Below are positions 14,301 to 60,388 of a stretch of DNA of 64,000 nt, in pieces. The position numbers and the translations under genes were made by a program. Position 1 is the first letter of the stretch. The number at the start of each line of letters is the position of its first letter. This DNA is from Protonemura montana. Its lineage: Eukaryota > Arthropoda > Insecta > Plecoptera > Nemouridae. The notes below the pieces were generated by a model. It searched no databases and was not told the origin of the DNA. It was given only the letters and a program-made list of their open reading frames with translations. The stretch is taken from positions 14,001,021 to 14,065,020 of the forward strand of contig OX387602.1 in the NCBI GenBank assembly GCA_947568835.1. Reading direction: 5' to 3'.

Positions 14301-17300
14301 AAGTAGTTGTCGGTTGCTAATTTTTGCTAAGACAATCTAATCATGGTCTGACATTAGCGCTGAGACTCACCCACTACATCTTAACTGCACACCCAATGGT
14401 GGGACGTAGAGTTGAGAGGGTTTTATTTTCAAAATTCTGCATTTGTTTGTACATGCTAGTTACAATGTTCTTGTTTTAGTATTTCATAACTGGGCACTTT
14501 TTAGTTTCATTGTAAGTGAAATGGAAAATCGGTTGGATATGCTAGGTATTTTTTTTAATTGAGGGAAAACAGTGGCTTGTTTTGGGGTACTTGCTCGTAG
14601 TGCATGCAATTAACACAGAGAATTTCATGACTTCGCATTTACCAGAAAAAATTGCGCACGCTTTTACATATATATTTTTTTTTAGTTTTAAATTATTTCT
14701 AGGAACGCTGATGTTTATTTTGTTTCAATGTTTTGAGGGAGCGTAAAAACAAAATGCTTACCCCAATGACGTGATGTTTTCTCTCTAGTGGTGGAAATTT
14801 GAATATTTTGCACCAGTAAAACGTATCCATTTTTTCGGGCACCGTGAACTGAAAGCAGAAGAAAATTACATTAGCAAAAAATGGCAAACTAACTCAATTA
14901 TCAACACCGCAAACAAGAATGCTTTGCTGTGGAGAATGAGCTCGGTCAATGTTTCCTTCGCGGGCCCAGGTCCCTATAATGTCTAACTCGTCCTGCGAGA
15001 GCGGTATTAAGTCACTTTGAGTCGGAGGCCTTTGGCGTTTTGGCTCGATAAGCGTAAATTATTTCCAAGCGTACATTTAGTGGGATTGTGGTGTAATCGA
15101 ACAAAGATCGACAAAGCTTTGCTGTCGGGACACCAAAATGTGAGCCGGCAATTGGTGTGCTGGTCGTTCTTAGAGGGTGTGAACATTAATTGGTGTAACG
15201 CTTAGAATTTAGTCAAACCACTATTTGGCGACATGGACTTTGTCGCTTTTTCCTCTCTTGGCGGTGCTTTTTTTGAACAAAACTTTCTTGCCAACTTGGA
15301 AGCACAAAAACGAAGTTTGACACGTTGTATTTATATTGATCAGAAAATGTTATGGAAACTAATTTTTTGTTTTTATTGATTTGCATGAACATTACATTAA
15401 ATTACATCGATTTCCGGGTTCAGAGTTCCTTCACTATTTTCCCAGTGATCGCATTTGATAAACTGTTTATAAAAGGAAAACTGAATAAGCTGCAAAAACA
15501 TGTCAACAAAGCTCGCTCACGTCGTTCTATCGCTCTATCGTTGACTTCACCCGCTCAGCATAGATTTCCGGCAGAGGCGCCACCGTTTTTTTTTTCGTTT
15601 GACATGCGAGGTTAGTCATTTTAAAACAACTCAACTCCGCTGATGTCCGCCATTTTCATTTTGCTCTAAAGCTTTTTTCGAGTGAAGATATTTTATTTTC
15701 AAGCTATTGTATCATAATTTGTCTACCCATTGCAACAATCTTGGGAGTTATTTTGCTGATGTAATAAATATTTTGAAATCCCTCCACTAAAATCATAACT
15801 GAAAGTTCATTGATGCGTAGGTGGCAATGCTGAGGGGCAGTCCTTGTCCTTGTAACTTCTCTCGCGGGCTAGAATGTACGGTATTTTAGTGACTTATAGT
15901 GCAACGATTTTTCCCCCAGGTGCGCTGCCTTCCTCACTGACTATTCCCCGGGAAATTTAAACATAATTTCAATTAGCGATACCTAAACTAATTGATACGT
16001 AACGACATTTGCATGCAGGTAAACAGAATTGTCTAGGGTCACGAACTCGACAAAAGACTTACATCGGTGAGGGCCACGTCCCATTGGCGCAGACCGGGTC
16101 GCGGTGTTTTCAGCGTTGTCGGTGGCTTGATGAGATGCAGACTGCGACCTCCGCGTCGATCGCCGTGCCAGTTTAACCCTTGTAGGTGCCCCGAGGCGTC
16201 TAGCGATGGATCCGAACGGTAAATTGCCCAAATCACGCGCACAGTGTCGCTCTGCAAAGAGAAATGACGAACCGTGATTAGACACCGCTCGTATTATGTC
16301 ATGGAGTACGTTTGAAATCTAATTCAAATAGCACAAACTTGCAATGGGCAGAGTATTTGATTATTATTTGATTATTATAAAATTGTTGAGATTTACTTCT
16401 CAAAAATATGTATCCAATCAGGGTCTCGAGCCATGAACCGCTAAAACCCTCGAAAGAAATTGTATTATTAAATTTGTATTTTTCTTAGAGATTATTAGTG
16501 GTAATAACAACAATACATTGGCATCAAATAAAGCTTAGTTTTTTGTTTTACCTAATGTCAATGTGTTTTTAACAGGAAAAATATGTTTCTTCATCAAAGT
16601 CTCTTTAATAATAAAATATCTCTGAATATTTACCCAAAATACACAGAAATATTGTCATCTGCGCAACGTGTATCAGCCACTCGGTCTCTGGATGCCATCT
16701 CTATACACATTCATTTCAGTGCAGCATTATTTACTCCTAACGGTCGTTTTTGATCTGTTACATTCAGCACAGCTAATTGTAGCAGTTGAATACAATTTAA
16801 TAATCACCATCTTGATTTGACATAATAATTTAAGTCAGTGTCAACTATGGCATGACATTTTTGATCGGCCGTCGTCGCTGGCACCCACGTCAAGGTTCTG
16901 TATACCTGAGCGTCATCAGCAGCTGACGCGTGGCTTTCGGAAAATCATAGAAAAGCGTAATTCACCTGCTTTGGACGTGCGCGGAAAGTTAATACTATGG
17001 CGCATTGTGACTATAGTTCATTTCATCTTAAGAAAAATAGTTTAATCGTTTTTTTTTCAAGAACCCAATGAGGACCAAACAGGGCTGAATACCTGCACAC
17101 CTGCGATATATAATTTTGTGTATTCAATTGAAAAGGTTAGTAGCTGATTTCTAGCAGTAGTAGTAGCAACAGTGAGTTTTCTTGGGAAATGAGGGGTTGG
17201 TACTAACAACCTAACACCAACAGTTACAAACTACCCCTGCCTATCTTGAGGAAACAAATAGGCTTTATGGCAAATGTTTTTAACCCTTGTCTGCTGATCG

Positions 17301-32700: not shown

Positions 32701-34957
32701 AATGATAAGGAACAAATGGAAATACGATTTAGATATGCATCGAGAAAGTGCATTTTGGCAACATGTTCAACAGAACGGTCATTCATATTTGCTTTACAAA
32801 AGATCATATTTAAAACATAAATATCTGTGGCACAATACTTTTATCAAACTGCGAACAACTCCATCGTACGACTGGAATATTATAAGTAATTCCCGGAAGA
32901 GATGCCTTTTTTTTTACGAAAATTTTCTGTTTGCAGACGTGAAAATTAAATTAAACGACCATCGCGAGGCCTAATATGCATGTATGTTAATTTTCACGTT
33001 AATCTAAATCTTAATTAACTCGGGATGTAGAACAGCGATGGCTTACAAAATGTACTCACTCTTCACTCTTGGATAGAGGAAATAAATACAAATAAAACAA
33101 GCGACAACGGGGATCGCAATCACACCTGTTATCCAAATCTGATTTTACGTTCTATTTCTTAACGAAACCTCTAATTAAGATGGTACTCTAACAATCTTGA
33201 AATGTTCTGGGTGACGAAATATGTGTGAAAAGGCTACCCAAATGTGTCTGTATTATGTGCTATATTATTACGCCCTGATAAAAAGATAACAGCCCGTTAA
33301 AGACTCATTTTCATAGGCACAACCAATCAGATCCTTCCATTTTCAGCTTAATGGCACGTTATCTTTTCATCCTGACCTTAGTGACTCATGATTCATGAAG
33401 ATTCCAAAGCCGATATCTTCGTGCTAGTGACAAAACTACTTGCCGAACGAAATAAGGTGGCAGGAAACACGATTCACATATATTTTCGGTTTTCATTAGA
33501 AAAAAACTGCGGTTTTTGTGGAAAAACAGGAAGGAAAACTTCAGCAGGATCACGGTGAGGCAAAGCGTTAAGAAAACTTAGTTATGGGAGCTTTATACGA
33601 AGAAAAAAAAAGACCAGGAAGTAAAAAAAGCCATAAATATAAAATGCGCACACCTAATGTATTTCACGTTGAAAACATTTTCGTAATATTTGACGTGGTT
33701 GCCATGTACTGTGCGTAAGAAGCCTGGCTGAAAAGGAAAGATGATTGTTGAAATTTGAAAGTAGAATATTTTCACTGACAAAAAAATGTATGTTCTAACT
33801 TTTAACAACTACTTAGCGCATTCTCTTTCACAACAGAAACTCAAGTTCGCGAAGTAAATATACATGTGTTTCATGAATATCATCCACATGTAAATTCCTT
33901 TGTGTGGAATACATGGTGGATTGTAATAGATTGCCTGAAGCTGCTGCAACGTGCAGCGCTCACAAACCGCGCATATTGCATACACATCGGGCGTGTTAAG
34001 TTAGCGAGAACCTTTTTTTCTAGAAAAGGAAGATAAATTGAACGAGATTTCGATTCCAGACCTCTTAAATGCATAGAGCACATTGTTCTTGGCGATTTTT
34101 CTATCTGTAGTCAGCTTGGTTGTCTATCTGAAAATGTAAGGGGCGGGTCCACGCTTGTTCTACACATTCTCCGAGGAAATATATGGGTCATACATAATTT
34201 CCCAGCTGTTTGGAATTATCGTAAGGAAATAGGGTTGCTATTCTGTTATTGAAAATTTAGCAATTTGGGAAAGATGTGGTGAATCGTACACATTTTTTTG
34301 ATCCGTTCCGATCCTTAAAGACCCTATAACAATGTGCGTTGTTAGAAAATATAACAATCAAGGGAAGTTTAATTAGCTAATTGGTCGATTTTCTTACACT
34401 CTTATATGTTGCAAAATGTTCTAGGATTAGGGTATTATAGTTAATAGTATTATTTTTTTAAATAAGTAATGAAAAATAGATGCTTAAAAAAATGAAACAC
34501 TAACATTAAAAAAAAAAAATTTTCGCAATCCGCCTGAACGACCGTTAGCCTTCTCAATTGATTCTGTGATTTCATTCTTCTTGAAGTAAAGAAAGAGCAT
34601 AAGTGCCCAAATATTCTTAGTATACTTTGAAACCTCTTTAAACATGTATGCGTTTCTTGATGGTTGCTTTGTCATGTCAAACAGTTTACCTACTTCAAGC
34701 TGGGGGAAGCACGCTGATAGCGATTTAGAAATAACAGCGAGTTTTCCAATACCTCTCGCATGAAGCTCTTGAGATGAATTTCCCTGGAAATATTTATTGT
34801 GACGTTCAAGAGCGTATTTTCATAAAAATAAAATCCGCGCTGCTTCATTTCCAAGGTCAATAAATGTCACATTCTTCCGCTGGTCGGTTAAACAAGCTTG
34901 AAAAGAATGCCGAGTAAACAGGGCGGTGGATTGGGAATAAGGACAAAAGAGATTTAT
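29746..34957. other. AT-rich spacer
   Basis: No gene recognised. Contains the poly(G) tract at 31411-31441 and a T run at 32082-32097. Open frames near 32341-32974 show no known domain. Confidence 0.4.
31411..31441 (+). repeat. Poly(G) tract
   Basis: 31 bases, all G apart from two A. It is capable of forming a G-quadruplex on the plus strand. The length may be an assembly approximation. Confidence 0.9.
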
Positions 34958-35192
34958 TTGATTATTATGAACACCACTATTGTCTCAAAAATGTATGTCC
35001 AAACGGGGACTCGAACCCCGATCGCGGGTGTTGCTCTAACCAATTGAGCTACTTGGATTGAGCGTACTTTCCGTCTGATTCTAGTGACCCTATACCAAGT
35101 CACAACCAACCAAGCAACACCCGCGATAGGTGGAGATCGTGGTTCCCCTTTGGGCATACAATTTTGAGACGGTAGTAGTGTTCATAATAATT
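34958..35192. mobile_element. Fold-back element with tRNA-derived arms
   Basis: The left arm (about 34958-35035) and right arm (about 35112-35192) are imperfect inverted copies. Both hold ATTATTATGAACAC, GTCTCAAAA, TGTATG.CC and GCGGGTGTTGCT or their complements. The left arm reads as a tRNA-like unit on the minus strand; the right arm has lost its B box. It could be one MITE-like element or two head-to-head SINEs. Confidence 0.75.
34997..35058 (-). pseudogene. tRNA-like sequence lacking an anticodon arm
   Basis: On the minus strand: acceptor ATCCAAG pairing with TTTGGA, A box TAGCTCAATTGG (35040-35051), intact D stem GCTC/GAGC, and T arm CGGGG-TTCGAGT-CCCCG with an exact B box GGTTCGAGTCC (35007-35017). 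Only about 12 nt lie between D and T arms, too few for a normal anticodon arm. Probably the Pol III head of a tRNA-derived SINE rather than a working tRNA. Confidence 0.65.
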
Positions 35193-38158
35193 AAATACCC
35201 CGGGCATTGCAAGCGTTTGCAATTTAAATAAGATTTCAACTAGGTTTATTTGATTGTTTTTAGACTCATGTCTACTTGATGTAACCTTAGCACTAGTTTT
35301 TTTTTAGGTTTATTTGAGATTGTCATTTGGTTTTGTTGTCAAAACAAGTATTTTTTTTTTGTTTTGTTTAGTGGAAATCGGCGATTCACTTGAGAGGACT
35401 TAACAAAACTAAGCCTATACTTAGATATCAAGTTTTCGGAAATTAGTTTACACATTTTCAGTTGTATTCTGAAAAAGACTTGCTTTTATCCCATCCTCCC
35501 TTAAAATCCCTGCTCCGTTGACGTCTGCTTTTTGTGTCCGCTCATTCCATTTCTGCCACTTGACTCCAAAAAGACAGGAGAAAGAAATCAGTTATATTTT
35601 TCCGCGAGACCGAGCGCACATTTTCCCGAAGCCTACGGCGATTTCCTGGCCGAAGGCATCGGGACGTACCTATCGAGTTAAGCGGTAAACCTTTAAGCCC
35701 ATAAAACGTCAAGCGAAGGGCGAGTGAAATGTTTGTGAGGTGGCTGGACATTTCGACGAAGATTTAGAGGCTCATGTTGGAAGATGAAGTCTATAGTCTA
35801 TTTTGAAGAGGGGTAGACTGGCTGACCCGTACGTAAATCATGTAATTGGATTAAAATGATGTTGCCGGAGGCATGAAGTTATTTTATCAAGGCGTGTTAG
35901 AAACACTCGACGTTTCGTGCTGTTCGAATTGTGACGATGGTATAGTGGTCAGGCGACCCAGATGAGTCGGTCTTGGCGACAAGCTGGATTTGTATCAACT
36001 GTGAACAAATGGAATAAAAAAGAAATACGTCCGGAGGATTTCGACGTTTCTCGTCTTTCGCTGTCAAGTGCAGTTTGCACCAAGTTTAATAGAAGTTGCA
36101 TTGGCTTGTTGTTCAGATCAAAAGAAGGCAGCAATTTCAGTGCTCAAGATGATCGGAACGTCAAGTTCAATTGAGCAAAAACAGTGTACGGAAAAATGTT
36201 TACTGTTGGTAGAAGATCTTCGGTATCTGATCCGTTTTTTATTTTATTTTTGAAGAAAACAACATACTACTGTCTGCCGCCCACAGAAAGGATGGCTGAA
36301 ATGTAGGATTTTTTAGTTAATATTTTGCTGCGATGAAAAGTGTGATATTTTTTATTTGACATTGAACGTACACAAATATTATTGATTCGGAAAGCTTTAT
36401 CTGACAGGTATTGTTACATCGTGAAAGTCTTTAGGTGACAGTAAGATACTTTCAAATATACTCAAATGGGAATGTCACGAAATGTGGGCTGGTTTTGAGC
36501 TGCTTTGTTAGCGAACAGAATTGTGTTCTTAGACATCTGTCATCGCCTGTTGTTAGCAAACCTGCACACGTCATTAGATAGGTCAATATTTCCTCCCGCA
36601 TCCTGTTTATTTTTGGCTCCAGGGGGACGATTCCAGCTGGATGGACGTCGAGTGCTTCGAGTTATCGTAAGTAAGTATGCAATAAATTAACCCAAGTTAA
36701 CTTTGCTGCTTTAACTTTTCGCCGACTTATAGTGATAGAAAGTATTTGCGTTAAGGGTGAGGAAATCATTATTGCCTTTGCGTACATAATAACTTGATCG
36801 ATGTGGCACAGTTTCGTGTTGAAGCAATTCACATGTGGAGCTGTCAGAGAGACTCGCAATTGCCAAGAGACATGCCGATGCTTGTTTTTGCGAAACTCGC
36901 TGGTATATCAGTGTTGCCTTGGTTGTTAATGGCTCAGGCGTTCAGGATAAGTGCCCTATCAGCGTTAAATAGCGAGTTTCAGGTTGAGGGAAGAATACCT
37001 ATCTCTTGCGAATACTTTTTCGTGTCTCAGAACAAAATTGATCTAGAACAAGAAGCAGCTCATGGCTGTAGAAGAGAGGTTAGGAAGGAAAGAGAAGGTA
37101 TTTTTCCATTGATTATCAAATCGTTTGACACATTTTTTTGAGCGCTATGGAAAATGGGTACTTTCTGAAAAACCACACAACTGTGAAAGTAATTATTTCT
37201 TGTTGGGTGTTTCTGAGATATTTTTTCAGCTTTCGGCATAACTTTTAGATGTGTGTTGGTGTTTCGATAATTTAAAATAAGGCAACGATTTGCGTTTCCA
37301 ATTTCCCTCAAAGCTGTCACTTTATCATACTTTTATACACCACTGAATTGCTTTTTCAGTACTTTTGATTGCTACTAACTTGAGAAATTGACAAAATGTT
37401 ACCCGGAAAATGTCTATTCTTAGCTTAGACTTCATTTCCTCTGAAAGTACGCGTCGCTATTCAGATTTCTTGCAGAAACATCAAGAATATTGTAATGCCT
37501 TGGTATATCAAAACTGATATCTCAAACAATCCAAGGAGAGGCGCTGGAAAGATTCGGTGTGAGTATTTTAAGTTGATATTGGAATATTTTGATCTGTGTG
37601 CATAAGGATGAAAAGAAAATTGATGAGAAGTCATGATACCATAGTTCGAGCACGTGTGGTAAAGAAAGTAATGTTTACGCAAGAATTGGATTCTTGATTT
37701 CAATTTCGAAGATTTTAAAAAGAATACCGACAAAGGCTTATTTCAAGGAAAACGTCAAAGTGCTCTGTGCACACATAAAACCTGTAAAGCGGATTTTTTT
37801 GTTCAATGTTTCAAAACAAACATCGAAAAAAACAAAAACAAAATTGTAACCTGATGGCAACTATTCCAGAAAACAATTATTTGAATCCGATTTTCAAAAA
37901 GTCTGTTAAAACGGGATCACTGGAACAGAAGTTCAAGAGTGAGGGAAACGTCTTATGTTTAATTAATCTGCTGGTCTCTAAGTGTCCTGTGTATTTAAAC
38001 TTTTGACGAATTTCTACTTGCATCTCTTGACACCGTTCCCGTCAGACCGAAAGTTAAATTCTTGAAGCCTTCTTGTAATTTCAGCATCAAATCGCAAAAC
38101 TTGTCGTCAGTTAACGGTTGACAGGAGTAAAAATAAAGTAGCACTTTTCATAGCCCGT
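35193..38158. other. Spacer, no gene recognised
   Basis: AT-rich. Frames at 35962-36174 and 36794-37141 are open but show no family features, signal peptide or splice context. Confidence 0.4.
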
Positions 38159-43578: not shown

Positions 43579-45604
43579 ATTGGCTTGATTAAAGGATGTG
43601 TCTTGATGGTAATTGGCGGCGAGACTGAGTCAACGGTGGCTTAGAAAGACTGTTGAAGGGTTGCTTTAATTGTCGAGTCGAATCGGGAAAATAACGCGTC
43701 ATGCGTAGCGGTGCGTGTTTTCTCGGAAATTTATTCTTGGAGAGTGTTAAGTTTATAACCAAGTTACCTACGCGTGGTTTAGAAAAGATGACTGCATCTA
43801 GTTTTCTTCGGAAAGAAGTTTACCTGGAAAAGAGAGAATGTGAAAGATTAGTGGACTTGTATGCAAATATTTTGTGTCATCGAACAAAAATAGCTCTTGG
43901 AGCTTGCAAAGTGGCGTAAATAATTATATTCAATGAAAAGTTATATTCGAATGATTTGCTTTAGAATTGTTGATTTTGGATCGAAAATTTGTAAATATAC
44001 ATTTCAAGGGAAGTTTTCTGTAGTTAGCATTTGGAATATGAATTCGTCCAGTGTAAGCTAATATACACTGCAACTGACTTAGAGTTTTTACGCTATTAGT
44101 GCGCGACGCTGACTCTTGAAACGTCAACATTTGTGCAAAAAAATTTTAACCCAAAGCTTTAAAGTGCTAGGCGAGTAAAGATCTGCCTCGCAAATTCTAT
44201 TTGAACCTTGGTCATGTATACAAACGAGAAAAGTAACAGAAGAAATAAAAAATACATCATACGTTGTTTATGGTTAAGAGTTATTATCTACCTTTTCGGT
44301 AATGGATTGAACTTCATGAGCGCATAAGCACATCTAGATAAAAAAAAATCGTCACAGAGATCCACAAACTTCTACGGATAAATGCGAAATTACTCTGGAA
44401 AATTACATTTCCCCATTACTGTCCAGAAAAATCCAGGGATGTGTTTTTCTACCAACTGTTGCAACGTTCTGTGTAAATAGCACGCTCCTTTTAAAAATAC
44501 AAAACATGGAAATAGAAATTAATTTGGGAAATGGGTATTTTAACTCGCTTGTGGTTACTGTGGTTACGTAGAATTTAGGAGTTTTGATGTCGACACCCTA
44601 CGAAACTTCGTCTAGAGTTTAGATTCCAGTTTGGTACCACGAACTAGAAATAATCCACGCGTAGGCACTGTTAATTTAGTGCAGATACTGACCGCCACAA
44701 GGCTTTTGTAAAGCTTACCTTGGCAACGTGTTTAGGTCTTAGATTTCGTGAGCAAGGCTAATTTTACTACGGTGCAACGAAATGACTACAAGCTTTTCCG
44801 ACAGCTAGAGATGGAGTCAAGATGTGCCCCCCCTCCCTTTCCCGGATGGTAATTTGATATTGTTTAACGTCACATGCATAATTATATTTACATAGTTATA
44901 TCATTTACATTAAAAATAAGTTGTCACAAAAGTTCTAATGTACAAACATGCTCGACATCGCTTTCCGAAGCTGTTTGATTGATCAGGTAATATAAATGGA
45001 AGAGCTCAATTACAGAGGGAGCGATGTTTTACATGGCGTCTATCACGATGATTATGATGGGATTCTGATGATCTCATTTTAATATTATAATGAGGCAGTA
45101 AAAAAGGAAGTAGGTTGCACAGTTCTGAAAATTACTTCAGATAGGCGGAGAAAATGAAAGATTTAAAGAGCCAGAAAATGAGACGTTCAAGATGACTTCA
45201 AGATAAATCATCTGTTTTTATTCTGTGAAAACTGAATGCTTTTTCTAAGAAGGAAATGCACAGTTCTTTCGTTACGTTTTTATTTAAACTGAAAATATTT
45301 AGATAAAAAGTGCAATTTAGTTCCGTAAACGGCACGATATAAACGTGAAACACGTGATATTGGAAACACATGTCGGCTGCATCCAATTAGAGACTTCCTC
45401 GTCAGTATGGCTACTCATTTCCCACAGTAATTACCAATTAGTGTAAATTTCCATTACCGTTAATTATTTAATGGAGCCGGTTGTTTGATCACTTAGTGGT
45501 CATGAAGCATGCATTTATTTTACTAATCTTACAAGTTTTGTTAGAGTTTCTAGAAACTGACGGGAACATGACTATTGTGTATGTGGTCAGAGAATTTATG
45601 CTAC
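43579..45604. other. Upstream spacer of the GPCR gene
   Basis: AT-rich, with no gene recognised. It would include the receptor promoter, but no clear core elements are seen. Confidence 0.4.
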
Positions 45605-46375
45605 AGTCTAGCTCATGAGAGAAGATACCAGCACAAGGACTGCCCCCTGCATTGATACTGTCTAGCCCTCGAGAGAAGATACCAACACAAGGAGATGCCC
45701 CCTGCATTGATACAGTCTAGCCCATGAGAGAAGATACCAGCACAAGGACTGCCCCCTGCATTAATACAGTCTAGCCCATGAGAGAAGATACCAACACAAG
45801 GACTGCCCCCTGCATTGATACTGTCTAGCCCATGAGAGAAGATACCAGCACAAGGACTGCCCCCTGCATTGATACAGTCTAGCCCATGAGAGAAGATACC
45901 AACACAAGGACTGCCCCCTGTATTGATACTGTCTAGCCCTCGAGAGAAGATACCAACACAAGAACTGCCCCCTGCATTGATACAGTCTAGCCCATGAGAG
46001 AAGATACCAGCACAAGGACTGCCCCCTGCATTGATACAGTCTAGCCCATGAGAGAAGATACCAGCACAAGGACTGCCCCCTGCATTGATACAGTCTAGCC
46101 CATGAGAGAAGATACCAACACAAGGACAGACCCCACAGAAATGCTTCTAGCTTTGGCAGGGTTTCAAAATATTTTTTCTATCTGCAAAATAATCACCAGA
46201 TTGTTATAATTTGTAGAAAAATTCTTAAAATAGCTCGAAAAAAAAAGATCTTAGCAAAAACTTTAAAGCAATATGAAATGACGGACATTAGTGGGAATGA
46301 TTTGTAGTGTTTTAAACATGACAGTTGGCCCACATGACACCCCTTAACGACCAGTGGCGTTTCTGCCGGGAAAGT
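45605..46375 (-). mobile_element. Dispersed element copy 4, with internal minisatellite expansion
   Basis: Read on the minus strand: CCGGCAGAAACGCCACTGG, CATGTGGGCCAACTGTCAT, AACACTACAAATC, CTAATGTCCG, TATTGCTTTAAAG, ATTTTGCAGATAG and ATATTTTGAAACCC, in the same order as copies 1-3. These are followed by the CAGTCCTTGT...CTTCTCTC.TGGGCTAGA segment, repeated ten times here. No coding capacity for a transposase. Confidence 0.8.
45607..46130. repeat. 54-bp minisatellite, ten units
   Basis: Units start at 45607, 45661, 45716, 45770, 45824, 45878, 45932, 45986, 46040 and 46094; all are 54 bp except one of 55, and the last is partial. Because 54 is a multiple of three, 18-residue repeats stay open on the minus strand, but this is not a credible gene. 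Confidence 0.95.
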
Positions 46376-46377
46376 AT

Positions 46378-46385
46378 GTACTCTC

Positions 46386-46454
<69 letters not shown>

Positions 46455-49493: not shown

Positions 49494-49850
49494 GGGCAGA
49501 GGTGCCCCGGATCGTTTTTGGATGACATGTGGGCCAACTGTCATTTAAAAAACACTAAAAATTATCTCCGCTGATGTCCGCTATTTTATTTTGCCCTAAA
49601 ACTTTTTTTCGTGCCAAGATGTTTTGTTCCTCTAGCTATTATAAAATGTTGTCTACCATTTGTGACAATCTTGGGAATTATTGTGAAGATATAATACTTA
49701 ATTAAGAATACCGCCACTGAAGTAACCAAAGAAACCAATGCTAAATAATAAAAAAATAACCATATCCAAAGTTGCAATAATCTTTGTTAGAAATGCCTTG
49801 GGGGAAATGGGGGGATTTCTTGTGTAGATCTTCTCTGACGGGCTAGATTT
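49494..49850 (+). mobile_element. Dispersed element copy 2 (single-unit form)
   Basis: GGGCAGAGGTGCC, GACATGTGGGCCAACTGTCA, AACACTAAAAAT, CGCTGATGTCCGCTATTTTA, CAATCTTGGGAATTATT and CTTCTCTGACGGGCTAGA, in the same order as the other copies. It is the copy closest in sequence to copy 4. Confidence 0.8.
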
Positions 49851-52800
49851 TAGGTTATCAAGATAATATATACATTGAACATAGATAGTCTCTATTTCTT
49901 TGTGACGTGTAGATATGAATTATAATATGATAGTGCAAGAAAATCCAAGTTCAAAGCCATAAAAAAAATCTTATTAGTTGTGTTTTAGGTGGAATTTGAA
50001 ACGTCTGCCAAAGAAAAGTCTCACGATATTCTAATGTACAACATGTTTAAACATTGGCTTTTTAAAGTATGTTTTTTTTACAACCCGACATGTTTTGAGT
50101 TCTCATAGCGCGGCATAGCTTGAGTTGTGCGACCATAAACACCTTGTTTATTGACCGGCCGGTAATAATATTATGAGATCGCTGGTGGAACGAGATGGGA
50201 CGATACGGGTATCATGAGATCAAATGAAAGATATTAATCTTCCTCCCATTTCTTGCGATGCGGCGACAGAAAGGTCACACGTTTCAACCGTCTCAATGTC
50301 ACGAGAAAACACACTTCAGGGAAATATATTTTGGTAGCATTTTCAGATGGATAAATGTGTCATCATTCCTAATCCGAAGTGATTGACATTTGAGTAACCA
50401 GCAATAAATCTAGATGACGGTGGATTTTAGTCTTAAATGGTTTTGTTTTACGTTTTAAATCTAGGAAATGCAAGTCGCTGCTGAAACAATTAAAATGGAA
50501 ATGAAATTCAAACGAGAAGTTTAAAAATAAAACTTGGGTTGCGAGAAGAAGCGGCTGTCTGGATGGCTATTCAACCCCATCATCTCCCATATACAGGGTA
50601 AAACCAACGCTAAAAAAAAACCTACCAAAAACCTATAATTCCCACAAAACCGCTAAAAACTGTACGTCTGAATTTTAATAACTGATTCTTGAAGCAAGCA
50701 AAAATGCGATTTTTGAAAAAGTGTTTGTGAATAGTTCCAAACGCCACTCAACTGAAAATCCTGCTAAGAAAAAAAATCTTCAAAATGTCGCACATTTGTT
50801 TGACAGCAACTCCGTAGAGCGAATCTGTAATTTTCATCCAGCCCACATTTTCTTTTTGTAGTACATTGTAACGTCCAGCACTTTTACCACAGCTTTTACT
50901 ATGGTAACAAAATAACCACAATTCAGCTAATCGTTCGGCTAAAGAAATGTGTCAACCTAACACCAACGCTTGTTAACGAGGAGCCTGGCAAAAAAATAAA
51001 TCTCCATTCACACACGTACCGGAGAATCGCCCCAATGATACAGATTAACATTTCCCGGGGACGTGAGTCCAGACTCGAGTCCATCTGTGATCAAGTTAAG
51101 ACATAGTTCGAGGCGGTGCAAGAGCCGAAGTTTTAATAGTAAATAAGTTAGCTGAGAAAGATCGTGCTGCGGGCTCTTCTGTCTTATCAAGAAAGCTCGC
51201 AAGTCAAATTGGTGACGACTCCTGCTCGACTACTATTCCACAACTACGTGACCCCACTCGATAAGATACTCACCCCTTGAACAACTTCACCTCCCCTCCG
51301 TGGTTGATAATGGACTTGTTTCTTTCAGAGAAACTCATTCAAGTTCAATTATTTGTCTTGCGAGGGAATTATATGATGACAGCATAGACCGGCTGCTGAT
51401 GGGACAAACTTTTCAACACCAGCTAATCGAGCGTCAGGTTACTAAAGCTCCTTTAAAAAGAATCTAATTTATTAACTCTTGGGTAGTTGAGCTCGTTTGA
51501 ACAAGAGTGGTCTAAATTTGACGTGGTATAATTAAATGTAACTAAAACTCAAAAGTGGCCCTGTATTGACCAATCAATTTGCTTAGGGTTCTGAAAACCC
51601 TTTCAAAATAGCACAGAATTTTCTTGAAATATTTTGTAATTGACGGTAATTACCCACATCGGTCCTTCTGTACCGAATCAAGAACGGCAACGTCGACCTA
51701 GGAAGAAAGCACGGCACCTACATTGCTCATCGTTGACGATGGAGGTGCCATGTTATTCCTCAAGGTCATTTTTACAAGAATCATCAGCGATGCAGTGAAC
51801 GCTCTTGTTTGCATTTCCTTCTTGCTGCAATCGGAGTGGGTTGTTTGTTTTAACGGCGTGCGATGGACCTAGGCGTCTCTATGCACATCTAGTGCACATT
51901 TAGCATTTAAAATTTCAATAAGTACATAATTAGGAGGTCTGCACTCTGTTTTAGCGAACAGCTTTCCTAAGATTAGCCAGGGTCATTTAGTACAATTTTA
52001 TTTATTTTTGGAATAACGTGTCTCAAGAGATACGATAATTTGATTTAATTTACATTCGTATACAATCGTTCATAAATATTCGTACGTACACATTTGAAAC
52101 TCAGAGTTGAGAAACACTGCCAGACAATTTCCAAACACCATATCATCGACTTCCGACTTCCTGAATAAAAATATTTAACTCGCTATTCCGGTCAGATTTT
52201 TCATTTTAACGTAGTGAAACGAGTAAATATATTTGAATAACTTGAAAAAAAAAAATTTTTTTGGGAGTTGACTGACCGGTGTGTGCTTAGACCACGGAGG
52301 AAAAGTGATCATTTCCCAATTATGAAACTTAATTAAGGCTGTAACAAAGCAATGTTTGCTCACTTTTAATATCGTCGTGCAGAACACAGAATTAGCAATT
52401 GAATGAACGTCCCGGCTTGACATGTCGGTTATGAATCCAGCAAAGGATTAAATGCCATTCGCTAACAACAAGCAAGCGTATTTTAGCACATTACCCTTTT
52501 CAACATTTCCCCCTAGAAACGTTTTATGTCCGCAGCTCAAACGTGGTCGTTGCGTCGGAAAGATTAATCTGGAAACGTTCGAGGAATGTAATGAACCTGG
52601 AAAATTCCACCTCAGATTTTCTGTTTTTGTGTGTGAATATTAAATCATATTTTTGAAGTTTAAATGAGGAGGAAAATTTGATTGAAATCACGTTCTTTGC
52701 AGCAGACTTCAAACAGAAGAGGCAACTTATATTTCAGATCAATGGCAAATAATATTCACATGCTTGTGTCTCCATGCCTTGCATATAGCAATTAGATATG

Positions 52801-54950
52801 AAGCCCAGTGCAACAAATAAAGAACTATTCACTGGAGTTGGAAAAGTGCTAGTAGACATTTATTTATTGCCATATTTTTGTTTGTTTTTAAATAGTTTTT
52901 AAATTGACCTGCTTTTCAGAGTGCTAATGCGCAGATGTGCATTCTTCACTGAGAATATTAAAAACTGTAAATTCAAATGTTTAACCAAATTTGCGCGAAC
53001 GACGTAATTATATTCTGTGTACATATCGTTCAGGATATAAGAAGTTAATATTAAAACACACGAGTGCGCCGTTTAATCAAGTTGAGAATCAAATGAAAAA
53101 TTCATTTTCCGTGAAACAGGAACTCGATACAACTATGTCAGCAATAATGTCATGCACAGTTGAAATATATAAACGCGATTTTTTGCATAATAATTCTCAA
53201 AAATTTCATTTTTCCATGATTAATTGCTAAACCATGACAAGCCGTGCAGGTTTTCTTCTTATTCTTGTGTCAGCAGCAGCAGCAAAGATTGGTTTATCGA
53301 GCTGTCCACGAAATAGGTGCACGAGACCATGCGCTCATCCCCTTGGTTTATGTGTACCACCAACCACGCTGTTGAAGGGGTGGAAAATAGTTTCTCCAAG
53401 CTACAAAGCGGTAATCTCAAACCTAGCAACAGGACTTGTCAAGAAGTTGGGTAATTAATCACTGGAACACGCAATATGTGAATACGTAACTTAATTTACT
53501 GTACCGACACATTTTATTTGGTAAATTGCTTGAGGGGAGAATATTTAAGTAATTTGAAGTAGTGTACCTTTTGTTGTGAACATCACAGGTTCATCATGGC
53601 TTTTTTTTAGATAGTTTATGATTAATTCTAAATAATTGATGCTATCCCCATTCAAATTTTCATCGAATACAATTCTTGCTTGCACTTATTTTTATAAAAT
53701 CGTTGGGTTTATTGGGCTACTGGGAAAGCAAGGAAATGATTTTTTTCATCATTGCTCCATTTTAAATCCCGGGACTTAATTAAAAATGTAAGCCCCCAAT
53801 TTATTGATGTGATTCCTTTGGGTATTCATTCAGGTAATTTGATTTTGATTTCGTACCAAGGTAGTAGAATCGGCAGCCAAACTTCATCAAAACATACAAT
53901 TCGGACAGTTAACGAGTTTTCTGTGATTACCTACTGCGTTTAAAAATACTATCCCAGTTCACGAGAAACTTTTAAAGCATTGTTATAAAATTACCGGTCA
54001 ATGAGTATTGTTTTTTTTTCACATCCCTTTCAAAGTATTTAAAACTTCTTCACGCATGGTTTGTGCAATTTAAATGAAAAAAGAAAAACTACACATTCAA
54101 TCACTTTCCAAACTGTTTTTGATATTTTTAAACGTTTGAACTAACTTGATGTTTCACAATACGTTTTGATTTCGTAGTTCGATTGGGTTGGGTTCAGCAA
54201 GGACCAGAGACTGTTATGGTAGTGCTTATAACTTAGTTTTAATGGCTTTCCATTTACAAATTGTGAAAAACCTGTAAAGCAAAACCAAATGCATTCTTTC
54301 AAAACTATGATTTTCTTAAACATTAAAGTACTTACTCAATGCTCTGTACACATGTGTTAAGAAACTTCAGAGATTAATTTGAAACCCCACTAGATGAAAA
54401 CTAAACATTTGTGAGTTGCTGTTTAAAATTTTGCCAATGCGTCTGTGATTTTGAGATCACAGCAAGCGGCAACGAAAAAGTATTTTATGGTTTTCACATA
54501 AATTTCACTCAGTCGTAGATTTTTATCTAGCGTTTATCGTTTTCGTAAACCGTACTTACATTCGAATTAGTACACCGTTGCTATTAACGTTGGTTGGAAA
54601 AGTGGTTTTTGCATTTTCCTCTCGTCGAATGGAAATTTTAAAATTTATCTCAAAACAGAATAAACTCAGAATGTCCTAAATAGAAGAAAACTGCAATTTT
54701 CTTCAAAACCACATAGTAATCCCAGTTCAATATTTACTCACAAGCGGCTCAGCCTGAAATTGAATTCAATTTAAAAAAAAATCCCACAAAGTTATATTGA
54801 AATCTTGAAAGTTATAAGTAGAGGGTGACACATACAATCTGTCTTAATATAAAAATCTCATGGCAACCTTCACTGAGACTAATAAAGTTTTGTCTGAAAA
54901 ACGATCCAAAGTACAAGCCCGCTGTACTTCATTCAGCAAGAGAACATATG
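49851..54950. other. AT-rich spacer
   Basis: No supported gene apart from a weak small secreted-peptide frame at 53234-53458. No promoter, tRNA or long repeat recognised. Confidence 0.4.
53234..53458 (+). CDS. Small open frame with signal-peptide-like start and four cysteines (speculative)
   Basis: 74 codons. Residues 1-17 (MTSRAGFLLILVSAAAA) resemble a signal peptide. Cys24, Cys29, Cys33 and Cys40 follow, with spacing CX4CX3CX6C, and then a basic C-terminal half. A CAG run codes the alanines. No homolog, splice sites or promoter recognised; it may be chance. Confidence 0.22.
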   Translation: MTSRAGFLLILVSAAAAKIGLSSCPRNRCTRPCAHPLGLCVPPTTLLKGWKIVSPSYKAVISNLATGLVKKLGN

Positions 54951-55463
54951 TTTCCGGTAGGGGCGCCACCGGTAGTTTTGGAGTAACATGCGAGCCAACG
55001 GTCATGTTTAAAAACACTAAAAATCAGCTCAGCTTCATCATCATCATCATCATTCTTCATTCAGCTTCAGCGTCATTTTAGCTTATATTCTCCATTTTTA
55101 TTTTGCTCTAAAGCTTCTGTCGTGATAAGTTATTTTGTTTTTCAAGCTACTTTAAAAATGATTCCACTAATTTTATCAATTTGTAAATTATTTTGCAGAT
55201 ACAATAAGTATTTTGAAATCCAGCCACTAAGGCCCGGTATAACAATATTTTCCAACTCAGAGCTAACCTTTTTACTCACAGAAACAGCTGAATTTTACTT
55301 CATTAGATTGGTTGTTGTCATGGAAATTGATGTAACTACCTACTTTATCTAAGAGTTAAGAAAATTGTGATAATGGGCATAAAATAAAATTCATCCAAGA
55401 GTTGGTAGCAATGCTAGGAGGCAATACGTATGCTAGTATCTTCTCTAGAAGGCTTTACTGTGG
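54951..55463 (+). mobile_element. Dispersed element copy 3 (single-unit form, with insertion)
   Basis: TTTCCGGTAGGGGCGCCACCGG, ACATGCGAGCCAACGGTCAT, AACACTAAAAATC, TTATTTTGCTCTAAAGCTTC, ATTATTTTGCAGAT, TATTTTGAAATCCAGCCACT, then about 150 extra bases before GCAATGCTAGGAGGCAATAC and TATCTTCTCTAGAAGGCT. A (CAT)n run at 55030-55050 is also private to this copy. Confidence 0.75.
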
Positions 55464-55495
55464 TCACTTTTAAAATATATTTACAGTCATGCACG

Positions 55496-56274: not shown

Positions 56275-56997
56275 ATGTGAAGTAAAAGAAAGGGCTTATT
56301 TTGCTTAAGTGAGACCAGTGACGGAGTACGGAGCATTGGTAAAGGATCCCCATAAGAAATCAGAAATCAAGGAATTGGAAAAGGTACAAAGACTGGCAGC
56401 AAGAAGAGTGACGGGAAGTATGAAAAATACGAGATTGTAAGATTTTTTTCGGTTTTGCTCTGTGTTGAAGAGGTTTGCGGCCCTAAAAAGGGGCTAACGT
56501 CTCGACGTGATGACGAGGCACGGCTCGTCATCTTCAGGAGAATGATGAAACCACCACGCAACCAAATACGAGATTGTTTGTAAAGGATAATGGGGAAAGT
56601 GTAAGAATGTGGGAACGACCTTCAATTATGATGAAAGAATTAAGGTGGGCATCGTTAGAAGAAATAAGAAAATTTTAAAAGAGTTTAGTGAAAAGATAGA
56701 AATGGATGAAAACAAGTTTGGGTGCCACAGAGAACATGGAGAAAATATTGTTATGAAAAATATGAAGAACGACGTTGACAACTACTCTTTTTTTAATAGA
56801 ACGGGTAAAGATTGGAAAAGAATGAAGAAAAGTGCAATGGAAGGGACTGAATAATGTTAACATTTTGAGAAGAAAGATGTTAGAATTAGTAATAGAAGAT
56901 GGTTTAGGTAATCATTTCAAGTAATTTTTCTGCCACCTGTATTTAACATGCAAATTGCAGTTTTTTCTTGGAAAATATGAATAAATAAATAAATATA
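56275..56997 (+). mobile_element. Non-LTR retrotransposon (LINE) relic, RT C-terminus and 3' end
   Basis: A frame reads VKERAYFA, a stop, then VRPVTEYGALVKDPHKK and LEKVQRLAARRVTGSM, the standard end of the reverse transcriptase in Jockey/CR1-type LINEs. After a 125-bp insertion the same frame goes on with RLFVKDNGESVRMWERPSI and ELRWASLEEIRKF, matching the usual LGWxSLxxRR end. The in-frame stop and insertion show it is dead. An ATAAATAAATAAATA tail near 56980 fits a LINE 3' end. Confidence 0.85.
56425..56577 (-). mobile_element. 125-bp insertion flanked by a 14-bp target-site duplication
   Basis: AAATACGAGATTGT occurs at 56425-56438 and again at 56564-56577, bracketing 56439-56563. The insert has a T run near its left end (a short A tail on the minus strand) and a hairpin GATGACGAG-GCACGG-CTCGTCATC. 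Size, TSD length and A-rich end fit a LINE-mobilised SINE-like element. Confidence 0.8.
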
Positions 56998-58644
56998 TGG
57001 AATCATATGTGTGGGATCATAAACAAGAGACAAATAAATGACAGATGTTTTCTAGTTTTGGTAAAATGTAAACGAACCTAGAAAAGCCGACAGGTCATAA
57101 TTTACTGATAGGTATTCAAAATATTTTATGATCAACCATTTTGTAGTTGCTTTCAACTAAAAAAAATCGGTCGAGGGAAAATCGTGTAGTCACTGCATTA
57201 CTTATAGCTGCCTTATTTACATTTCCTGATTAGATCTATAGACTCGCTTCCGTAGAATGCAAGTTCTGAGTGCAATTTTCCTAAGTAACGTTCAGCTTTA
57301 GTAATCCTAGAGCACGAGCTAATTTTATGTTAACGCAGTTAGGGCCAATGGCAATGTGTCCGAGCTACATCGTCCAATAAATTCTTCATGGAATAGCCTA
57401 CTGTCCTAAAGGGAACTAAAATTACAATATCTGTGTACAGCTCCATGGTCCTATATGGTATATTTGCAAGGATTAAGATTAAGTCTCTTGGATGCCGCAG
57501 GGCTTGCAAATTACTAACGCGACGGTCACTGGTCAGCTGCGTTATAACGTAGATTATAAATAGCCTGCCATTTATCAAGTTGTTTTATAAAGTAGAAAAA
57601 CGTTAAGCTAAATTGTCTGCTTCTGAGGAAATTAAGAAGACAAATCACGACACCTTTCAGTCAACTGTTTTTTTATTGAATTGGAGAGCTCAAGTTTCTT
57701 GAAACACGTTAGTTTCCAATGAAAATAATTTAGCTTTTCAATAATTATATTAAATTATAATAGAGTTACAGGTACATCAACAAATACCTGTATTTTAAAT
57801 TAGTACGTTTTAATGTTTGGTTCCAAATAATGTAATAGTAATTCGATTAGTAAATCAATTATTTGATATTGCATTCCCCTGCCATGAAGAGCCAGTGGCC
57901 AGGGATTCCAACGGCAACGAGTACCGGACAACAGTTACCCCAAACCATAAACTAATCAGTGGCCGAGGAATTTCCACCAGGCACCAGAATCGCTGCACCT
58001 GATAGCAGCAATTTAATCAACAAAAAATGTGAAAATGAATATTCGTATTCATGCTCGCAGAAAAATAAGAAACAGCAGACGAAATATTTTGTTGCCACAG
58101 TCATCGATCCAAATTGTAATTTTTTGAAAATATCTTTTACCCACACGCATGTAGTTTTTAAAACTCAATAATAACAAGCAATATAAAAAAGTTTGATTGA
58201 TGGTACGATTCATCAATCAAGAGTCTTTCTGTGTTGACGATCTTATCCCGCGCCGTCGAGGTATCAGCCATTGCGTCTTTGGACCTAATCTCCTAGCTGA
58301 CAGCTTCGGGGCAGGGTGAAATTCCTGGCTCACGAGTAAACACTTCCAGCCTAGACTTGTAGGGATGAAGGGAGGAATCAAATTTCCGGAACAAATAGTA
58401 CATCCCGTCTCTAGGGGATATTTAAATTAACCATTAAGCCGAGTACAATGTACATACATTTATATACATCACAATTGAGAATCGTTACGTCAGGTTTATA
58501 GGACACTAGCTCTGATCAAAATGGTGAGTTGCACCCTTGTAAACAGTGAAATATGGAAATGTTTTGTATGAGTTAAAATATGGGAAAGGCCCTGTCTGGA
58601 CTTTTGCAGGAATTGATGGTGATTTTTTGACGTCCGGATCAAGG
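56901..58644 (+). repeat. Tandem duplication, copy 1 (about 1,742 bp)
   Basis: Runs from GGTTTAGGTAATC to ...GTCCGGATCAAGG. The next base begins copy 2. It contains the LINE 3' tail, an AT-rich body, a 10-bp-stem hairpin (58193-58220) and a promoter with a Met-only exon at its right end. Confidence 0.95.
58461..58523 (+). promoter_or_regulatory. TATA/initiator promoter and Met-only first exon, copy 1
   Basis: TATATA at 58461, initiator GTCAG with A at 58492 (31 bp downstream), a 29-nt leader, and ATCAAAATG|GTGAGT, a start codon immediately followed by a consensus donor. This is the layout of a short first coding exon with a phase-0 intron after Met. The downstream exon is not identified. Confidence 0.55.
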
Positions 58645-60388
58645 TTTAGGTAATCATTTCAAGTAATTTTTCTGCCACCTGTATTTAACATGCAAATTGC
58701 AGTTTTTTCTTGGAAAATATGAATGAATAAATAAATAAATGTAATCATATGTGTGGGATCATAAACAAGAGACAAATAAATGACAGATGTTTTCTAGTTT
58801 TGGTAAAATGTAAACGAACCTAGAAAAGCCGACAGGTCATAATTTACTGATAGGTATTCAAAATATTTTATGATCAACCATTTTGTAGTTGCTTTCAACT
58901 AAAAAAAATCGGTCGAGGGAAAATCGTGTAATCACTGCATTACTTATAGCTGCCTTATTTACATTTCCTGATTAGATCTATAGACTCGCTTCCGTAGAAT
59001 GCAAGTTCTGAGTGCAATTTTCCTAAGTAACGTTCAGCTTTAGTAATCCTAGAGCACGAGCTAATTTTATGTTAACGCAGTTAGGGCCAATGGCAATGTG
59101 TCCGAGCTACATCGTCCAATAAATTCTTCATGGAATAGCCTACTGTCCTAAAGGGAACTAAAATTACAATATCTGTGTACAGCTCCATGGTCCTATATGG
59201 TATATTTGCAAGGATTAAGATTAAGTCTCTTGGATGCCGCAGGGCTTGCAAATTACTAACGCGACGGTCACTGGTCAGCTGCGTTATAACGTAGATTATA
59301 AATAGCCTGCCATTTATCAAGTTGTTTTATAAAGTAGAAAAACGTTAAGCTAAATTGTCTGCTTCTGAGGAAATTAAGAAGACAAATCACGACACCTTTC
59401 AGTCAACTGTTTTTTTATTGAATTGGAGAGCTCAAGTTTCTTGAAACACGTTAGTTTCCAATGAAAATAATTTAGCTTTTCAATAATTATATTAAATTAT
59501 AATAGAGTTACAGGTACATCAACAAATACCTGTATTTTAAATTAGTACGTTTTAATGTTTGGTTCCAAATAATGTAATAGTAATTCGATTAGTAAATCAA
59601 TTATTTGATATTGCATTCCCCTGCCATGAAGAGCCAGTGGCCAGGGATTCCAACGGCAACGAGTACCGGACAACAGTTACCCCAAACCATAAACTAATCA
59701 GTGGCCGAGGAATTTCCACCAGGCACCAGAATCGCTGCACCTGATAGCAGCAATTTAATCAACAAAAAATGTGAAAATGAATATTCGTATTCATGCTCGC
59801 AGAAAAATAAGAAACAGCAGACGAAATATTTTGTTGCCACAGTCATCGATCCAAATTGTAATTTTTTGAAAATATCTTTTACCCACACGCATGTAGTTTT
59901 TAAAACTCAATAATAACAAGCAATATAAAAAAGTTTGATTGATGGTACGATTCATCAATCAAGAGTCTTTCTGTGTTGACGATCTTATCCCGCGCCGTCG
60001 AGGTATCAGCCATTGCGTCTTTGGACCTAATCTCCTAGCTGACAGCTTCGGGGCAGGGTGAAATTCCTGGCTCACGAGTAAACACTTCCAGCCTAGACTT
60101 GTAGGGATGAAGGGAGGAATCAAATTTCCGGAACAAATAGTACATCCCGTCTCTAGGGGATATTTAAATTGACCATTAAGCCGAGTACAATGTACATATA
60201 CATTTATATACATCACAATTGAGAATCGTTACGTCAGGTTTATAGGACACTAGCTCTGATCAAAATGGTGAGTTGCACCCTTGTAAACAGTGAAATATGG
60301 AAATGTTTTGTATGAGTTAAAATATGGGAAAGGCCCTGTCTGGACTTTTGCAGGAATTAATGGTGATTTTTTGACGTCCGAATCAAGG
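58643..60388 (+). repeat. Tandem duplication, copy 2
   Basis: Nearly identical to copy 1. The visible differences are few: the AAAT tail, one G/A in GTAGTCACTG, T/C and G/A changes near the end, and an extra TA in the TACATA run. Junction homology is only GG. The duplication is recent. Confidence 0.95.
60205..60267 (+). promoter_or_regulatory. TATA/initiator promoter and Met-only first exon, copy 2
   Basis: Same arrangement as copy 1: TATATA at 60205, initiator A at 60236, ATG at 60265 followed by GTGAGT at 60268. As the copy nearer the likely gene body it is the better candidate for the active promoter. Confidence 0.55.

Follow-up and report, generated by a model that had tools for sequence, protein, structure and literature searches.

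How did a ten-unit minisatellite come to lie in one copy of a dispersed element, when the three other copies close by hold the same 54-bp unit once? The question is raised by a stretch of 64,000 nucleotides from Protonemura montana (the window, C1:14001021-14065020 of a 258-Mb assembly with 34 contigs), in which an earlier note, made from the letters alone, saw an internal segment of a mobile element, likened to Helentron-derived and some MITE-like families, expanded within its own copy. We consider it likely that the history was another one, and that an array made from the end of the element spread recently, by recombination, into relics that already carried the unit.

The window copy and the anatomy of the element

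The ten-unit array that had been described was recovered with Tandem Repeats Finder at 45602-46134 on the minus strand (score 924, the highest among 8 rows, with period 54, 92% matches and 9.9 copies). The three other copies of the element in the window were located with BLAST and a profile, and each of them holds the unit once, in agreement with the earlier observation. The features concerned are as follows.

45602..46134, minus strand: ten-unit 54-bp array, the unit being the 3'-terminal segment of the element
46135..46384, minus strand: head (core and spacer) of the array-bearing copy, about 250 bp; profile match 1-337 at 46384-46085
46381..46450, no strand: (CT)n microsatellite over the 5' edge of the array-bearing copy
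15558..15884, plus strand: single-unit copy near 15.6 kb, unit at 15825-15878
49495..49857, plus strand: single-unit copy near 49.5 kb, unit at 49809-49847
54939..55467, plus strand: single-unit copy near 55 kb, unit at 55405-55454

The distal end of the array at 45602 is the element terminus, TACAGTC as read on the plus strand, and the 5' terminus of the same copy is unreadable because the microsatellite overlaps the 5' edge. The copy near 55 kb is split into three profile pieces (54939-55034, 55073-55233 and 55385-55467). The window also contains a direct tandem duplication of about 1746 bp with 99.5% identity (56901-60388), and a segment at 34955-35197 that matches itself in inverted orientation (71% over 255 columns) and includes an Rfam tRNA match on the minus strand (34996-35058).

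When 28 copies were aligned with their flanks, 27 of them without an array behind the head and one array-bearing (L007, which was omitted from the profile), a block of about 345 columns stood out, with values of 0.75-0.90 in the five 60-column rows inside it and 0.34-0.43 in the rows outside. The element is about 345 bp in size and non-coding, and the 54-bp unit is its last (3') segment, which means that the repeated segment is terminal and not internal as first described. Of the two matching inverted end segments, one lies in the unit: the 5' end of the element is TATACTCCGTTCAGCGAGAGAACATAC, the 3' end, reverse-complemented, is TACAGTCTAGCCCGCGAGAGAAGATAC, and 19 of the 27 end positions of the consensus match in inverted orientation (counted by eye). 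The array is in register with the unit of the element, and array units join at TA. TA is also the commonest terminal dinucleotide at both ends, found at 14 of 44 5' ends as placed by local alignment and at 22 of 35 3' ends (background 6.7%), and the flanks beyond it vary.

The element, including the minisatellite unit, is dispersed in many copies, and both states occur genome-wide, which upholds this part of what had been proposed. A genome search with the window head gave 792 candidates, of which the best 40 were scored, and returned the query and at least 39 other places at 75-79% identity; among the 30 loci kept from this search, an array lies behind the matched head in three (the window copy, L013 and L037). 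A 30-base piece of the core occurs 466 times in the genome with at most three mismatches (227 + 239; control 0 + 0), and an exact 26-base junction between units occurs 4511 times in the 258 Mb (2308 + 2203; reversed control 0 + 0). As both sequences are abundant and the controls are 0 + 0, chance is excluded. The arrays are head-to-tail repeats of one monomer family at many loci, as in a satellite or minisatellite, with 3 to 85 units in the fetched loci.

Empty sites were sought with 25 joined flank pairs, and in the best 40 of 51 candidates, which were scored, no match of more than about 8 bases ran across the junction; nor did the joined-flank search find a sister locus from before the proposed seeding. 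Local BLAST of the joined flanks against the fetched loci gave, among the matches listed, only unit remnants and one 17-base match between different loci. The left flank of L010 (C2:7046154-7046200), by itself, proved to be repeated in the empty-site search; it is 100% identical at 11 other places up to the element edge and ends at the element in AAT repeats, resembling the tail of a recent retroelement.

According to the available text of PMC4067079, HINE/DINE families have subterminal inverted repeats of at least 11 bp that are identical within the family, a short palindrome or hairpin near the 3' end, and insertion at TT or T-rich sites with no target duplication, and in mite HINEs the subterminal repeats lie about 2-4 nt from the 5' end and 38-60 nt from the 3' end. 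The inverted end segments found here share 9 identical bases (GCGAGAGAA), then one mismatch, then ATAC (in the consensus, by eye), so that the identical stretch is shorter than 11 bp. They lie 13 nt from each end with TA counted (by eye), which is not the spacing of the mite HINEs. Folding of the two consensus ends and of the unit was no better than that of shuffled sequences (z 0.40, 0.55 and 0.52), and a hairpin role for the 54-bp unit was rejected on that ground. The ends are TA and not TT or T-rich, the target being read from the ends with no empty site found. None of the four HINE features tested was thus present, and the Helentron identity suggested in the earlier note was abandoned. The element does have traits of a Tc1/mariner-type MITE, being short and non-coding with terminal inverted repeats, and a TA-flanked MITE fits better than a Helentron. 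It is probably an old, non-autonomous and MITE-like DNA element, now extinct, with imperfect 27-bp inverted ends that start with TA.

Ages of heads and units

Arrays were taken in two sets. The first is the 13 array loci that together account for the opening 100 junction places of the listing (C1, C2 and the first of C3), and the second, the long-array set, is 18 loci from a hand count of 38 further clusters. With the head defined as profile positions 1-258, the first set has 4 of 13 arrays with a full head, 6 with a partial one (in L051 from a weak match, E 7e-4), 1 with only the unit-adjacent spacer and 2 with none, and the long-array set has 7, 1, 4 and 6 of 18, respectively. It had been said that a majority of arrays outside the conserved core would speak against an origin within the element; the first set has no such majority, whereas the core is retained in a minority of the long-array set. 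Distal ends lie at most 3 nt from the element terminus in 16 of 34 arrays (p 1.4e-6; one further array ran off its locus), and four of these 16 are headless (L059, L060, L067 and L068). Most array loci were found via the exact consensus junction or likeness to the window array, the exceptions being the window copy itself; L013 and L037, found by the head alone; and L019 and L033, which lay near a core by chance. Because loci were mostly chosen by unit similarity, old arrays of divergent units are under-sampled.

Some loci have features of their own. L049 and L050 on C2 have a 55-bp spacing and G23 in 9 of 9 and 14 of 15 inner units, and form a separate subfamily. The 3.2-kb locus L037, with its 17-unit array of the 54-bp family, contains another tandem repeat as well (L037:1-645; 12.4 copies of period 52).

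The tree of heads contained 49 heads, 16 of them labelled as array-bearing; for one of the 16, L059, the label is wrong, because a distance of about 1.8 kb separates head and array. The tree, in which 3 of 46 inner branches are starred, has a star-like shape, and the array heads are scattered across it. Since the 12 label changes are near the level of the shuffles (13.6, with 97 of 500 as low), the array-bearing heads are not one clade, and the idea that they are one young subfamily is unsupported by the tree.

The 854 inner units of 34 arrays differ by 3.5% from one consensus, with a mean identity of 0.941 within arrays and 0.931 between arrays. In the 15 array copies with both parts measured, the median divergence is 19.4% for the head and 3.1% for the inner units. 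The same gap is present in the loci found by the head alone, where inner units and head are at 3.0% and 11.6% in L013 and at 1.2% and 16.8% in L037. In 26 single-unit copies the head is at 13.3% and the unit at 16.0%, the 13% being biased low, as these copies are the best matches to the window core and also built the profile. The sole age claim made across these two groups is that array heads are not younger than single-unit heads. Most of the examined arrays look much younger than the element copies that host them.

Source of the inner units and probable spread of the arrays

If an array has grown in place, its inner units are expected to carry the variants of the resident unit. Among 80 first-unit variants in 17 headed arrays, 24 are present in any inner unit and 2 in at least half of the inner units, and both of these widely shared variants belong to the window copy. 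L013 has no informative first-unit variant, and in 15 of the 16 informative headed arrays no such variant reaches half of the inner units. Two arrays, L047 and L063, supply 34 of the 80 variants, and their first units are so altered on the left that the alignment there is doubtful; without these two arrays, 2 of 46 variants are shared. The proposal that the array arose inside its own copy thus fails for 15 of the 16 informative arrays, and for the window copy itself local expansion is possible (2 of its 6 variants).

First units are chimeras, old on the left and consensus-like on the right. Their divergence by nine-base bin is 0.29 and 0.24 in the first two bins and 0.02-0.05 in the last three, or 19.8% in the left half and 3.1% in the right half, with the left half more diverged in 16 of 17. 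Single units are diverged by 29.1% in the left half and 18.7% in the right half. The right half separates first from single units (3.1% vs 18.7%, p 2e-7), and the left half is also less diverged in first units (19.8% vs 29.1%, p 0.006). A model in which the array was inserted at TA beside an intact old unit was rejected, the first units being chimeric. In last units the final nine bases are raised (0.137 vs 0.013 inside), and a half-by-half test of last units gave no right-side excess (5 vs 7 of 16). Edge decay is known in arrays homogenised in place, according to the available text of PMC5139131, and because it is expected also under such homogenisation, our argument rests on variants and ages and not on edges alone.

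The window array has inner units 8.4% diverged behind a head 11.8% diverged from the consensus (221 aligned positions), and T1 is found in 7 of 8 and T41 in 6 of 8 inner units. Position 8 is T in the first unit, likewise in 21 of 26 single units, and A in the inner units, likewise in most array units. The window copy may belong to the same array set, either as an early member or as one that expanded again locally, and L049 and L050 are, like the window array, more local in character than the other arrays.

Growth of each array in place, with slippage or unequal crossing-over multiplying the one unit of the host copy, is compatible with the existence of both states, with the register of array and element unit, with the small old multi-unit copies L046 (3 units) and L048 (4 units), and with the 2 of 6 first-unit variants that at least half of the inner units in the window array share. 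We regard it as unlikely, as these two are the only ones shared of 80, identity within arrays is barely above that between arrays, inner units are far less diverged than heads, and all but one of the informative arrays contradict it. An element of Helentron type that carried the array along in transposition would agree with a unit number that differs between copies and with the subterminal inverted segments GCGAGAGAA.ATAC near both ends; with array-bearing heads that are old and form no clade, and with the tested HINE end features lacking, this seems very improbable.

Steady interlocus gene conversion, which would keep units alike without a recent spread, predicts the same low divergence between arrays together with old heads, and some single-site variants are indeed found in several arrays. 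Outside six columns, 344 of the 854 inner units equal the consensus, and they occur in 29 of 34 arrays; outside positions 8-13, five of 34 arrays (L009, L040, L045, L049 and L050) show a departure from the consensus that most of their inner units carry. Haplotypes with one difference are common to more than one array in 40 of 79 cases, below the 58.6 of column shuffles, and those with two differences in 3 of 111 against 8.2; for three differences the count is 0 of 28 and the shuffles give 0.05, hence the comparison is uninformative. Derived variants are mostly private, as 40 of the 43 recurrent haplotypes with at least two differences occur in one array only. At 110, 140, 170 and 220 bases, multi-unit blocks common to arrays were no more frequent than with the unit order shuffled. 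Derived variants have mostly stayed where they arose, and one recent spread is therefore favoured over steady conversion. The single-unit copies, which have remained unconverted, also speak against conversion, and we give it a low probability.

In the recent spread that we favour, copies of the element would have spread first and then decayed to about 13-19% from the consensus (in the copies measured). The 3'-terminal 54 bp of the element would have become a satellite monomer, and much later one array variant would have spread genome-wide and entered unit-bearing relics by recombination within the resident 54-bp unit. Such events would leave the arrays old at the left edge and fresh in the inner units, and about half of them bounded on the right by the element terminus. 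The vehicle may have been satellite DNA, perhaps circular, used in homology-directed repair. Several points speak against this reading: the choice of most loci by unit similarity, the more local character of the window array, L049 and L050, the lower left-half divergence of first units than of single units, the half-by-half result for last units, edge decay that homogenisation in place would also produce, the lack of excess in common multi-unit blocks, the 6 headless arrays among the 18 long ones, and the failure to find a sister locus. We infer that the old copy came before the array, that there was one burst and not steady exchange, and that satellite DNA was the vehicle.

The arrays are unevenly distributed over the chromosomes. 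C1 and C2 (62.9 Mb, 24% of the genome) hold 98 of the 4511 exact junctions. In a count with one rarer junction variant, covering the first 100 listed of 122 places, the 137 Mb of C1-C5 have 7 array clusters and the 68 Mb of C11-C14 have 48 (rate ratio 14). For perfect core matches (n=20) the numbers are 13 and 5 with a rate ratio of 0.8, and for the 40 best-scored head-search places 28 and 11 (hand count). It is possible, and we put it forward tentatively, that relics of a dead transposon acted as homology landing pads throughout the genome, and that a satellite made from the transposon's own end recolonised old single-unit copies in one recent burst, recombining inside the resident unit, with an approximately 14-fold chromosome bias that the element itself does not share.

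Other repeats were seen near arrays and at contig ends. A 91-bp tandem repeat, 5S rRNA-like by eye, adjoins two 54-bp arrays on C14; it is present in L053 (4058-4178), which has an Rfam 5S rRNA match of 43.8 bits, in L003:2523-2983 and in L006:3154-3530. At least 11 assembly contigs are 13 Mb or longer. (TTTGG)n lies at contig ends of C1 (L076, right end) and C13 (L071, C13:1-500) and (TTAGG)n at a contig end of C16 (L085, C16:1-60), and the two motifs are interleaved in L066:161-849. TTTGG is the proposed telomeric motif of the weevil Sitophilus oryzae in the available text of PMC12134996.

Comparison with known systems

An array and the site that it occupies can seldom be given separate dates, which makes it hard to follow how satellites move from one scattered site to another. 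In the present system many arrays have a neutral clock next to them, the decayed head of the host, and the order of events can therefore be worked out for each locus. Given one or two related genomes, seeding into single-unit sites could be directly visible and its junctions readable. The system is also a warning that an array inside an element need not have arrived by transposition. A literature search on titles and abstract openings, with most subscription papers outside its scope, gave none announcing dated host heads with chimeric first units, which is weak evidence of novelty.

The Rsp-like satellite of the Drosophila simulans complex has reportedly been studied by Sproul et al. 2020. It resembles the present case in a recent spread to new euchromatic sites inside existing repeats and in a strong chromosome bias, but its hosts are described as 1.688 satellite arrays and not as copies of the parent element of the satellite (available text of PMC7919458).

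In the beetle Tribolium castaneum, fossil non-autonomous elements, which the authors of that study compare with mariner/Tc1, include the TCAST monomer in their terminal inverted repeats. The dispersed arrays show no clustering by array or by chromosome, and the same authors suggest that rolling-circle copies were reintegrated through homologous recombination. The likeness is in a satellite monomer that is part of the terminal inverted repeat of a fossil element. In the description as available, however, TCAST arrays and transposon-like elements are separate forms, whereas here young arrays lie in register inside old copies and have chimeric first units (PMC3411249). The monomer of miDNA4, a Xenopus MITE of the Tc1/mariner type (Scalvenzi and Pollet 2014, as told in PMC12628747), is likewise single or in arrays of variable number. 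In that account an internal repeat was reportedly captured and then expanded within the MITE, whereas here the segment is terminal and the arrays are much younger than their hosts.

In Tetris/TIR-220 of Drosophila virilis, too, units of a terminal repeat became long satellite arrays, but these are 220-bp repeats in long foldback TIRs, and their variation is ascribed to unequal crossing-over within the element (available text of PMC4079207). Cg_HINE of Crassostrea gigas is similar in that short satellite-like arrays are dispersed with a non-autonomous element; it differs in having central repeats, oligo-T insertion sites with no target duplication, and arrays carried by transposition, as far as described in the available text of PMC7492417. 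Each part of the case made here has precedents, and the head as a local clock makes it sharper.
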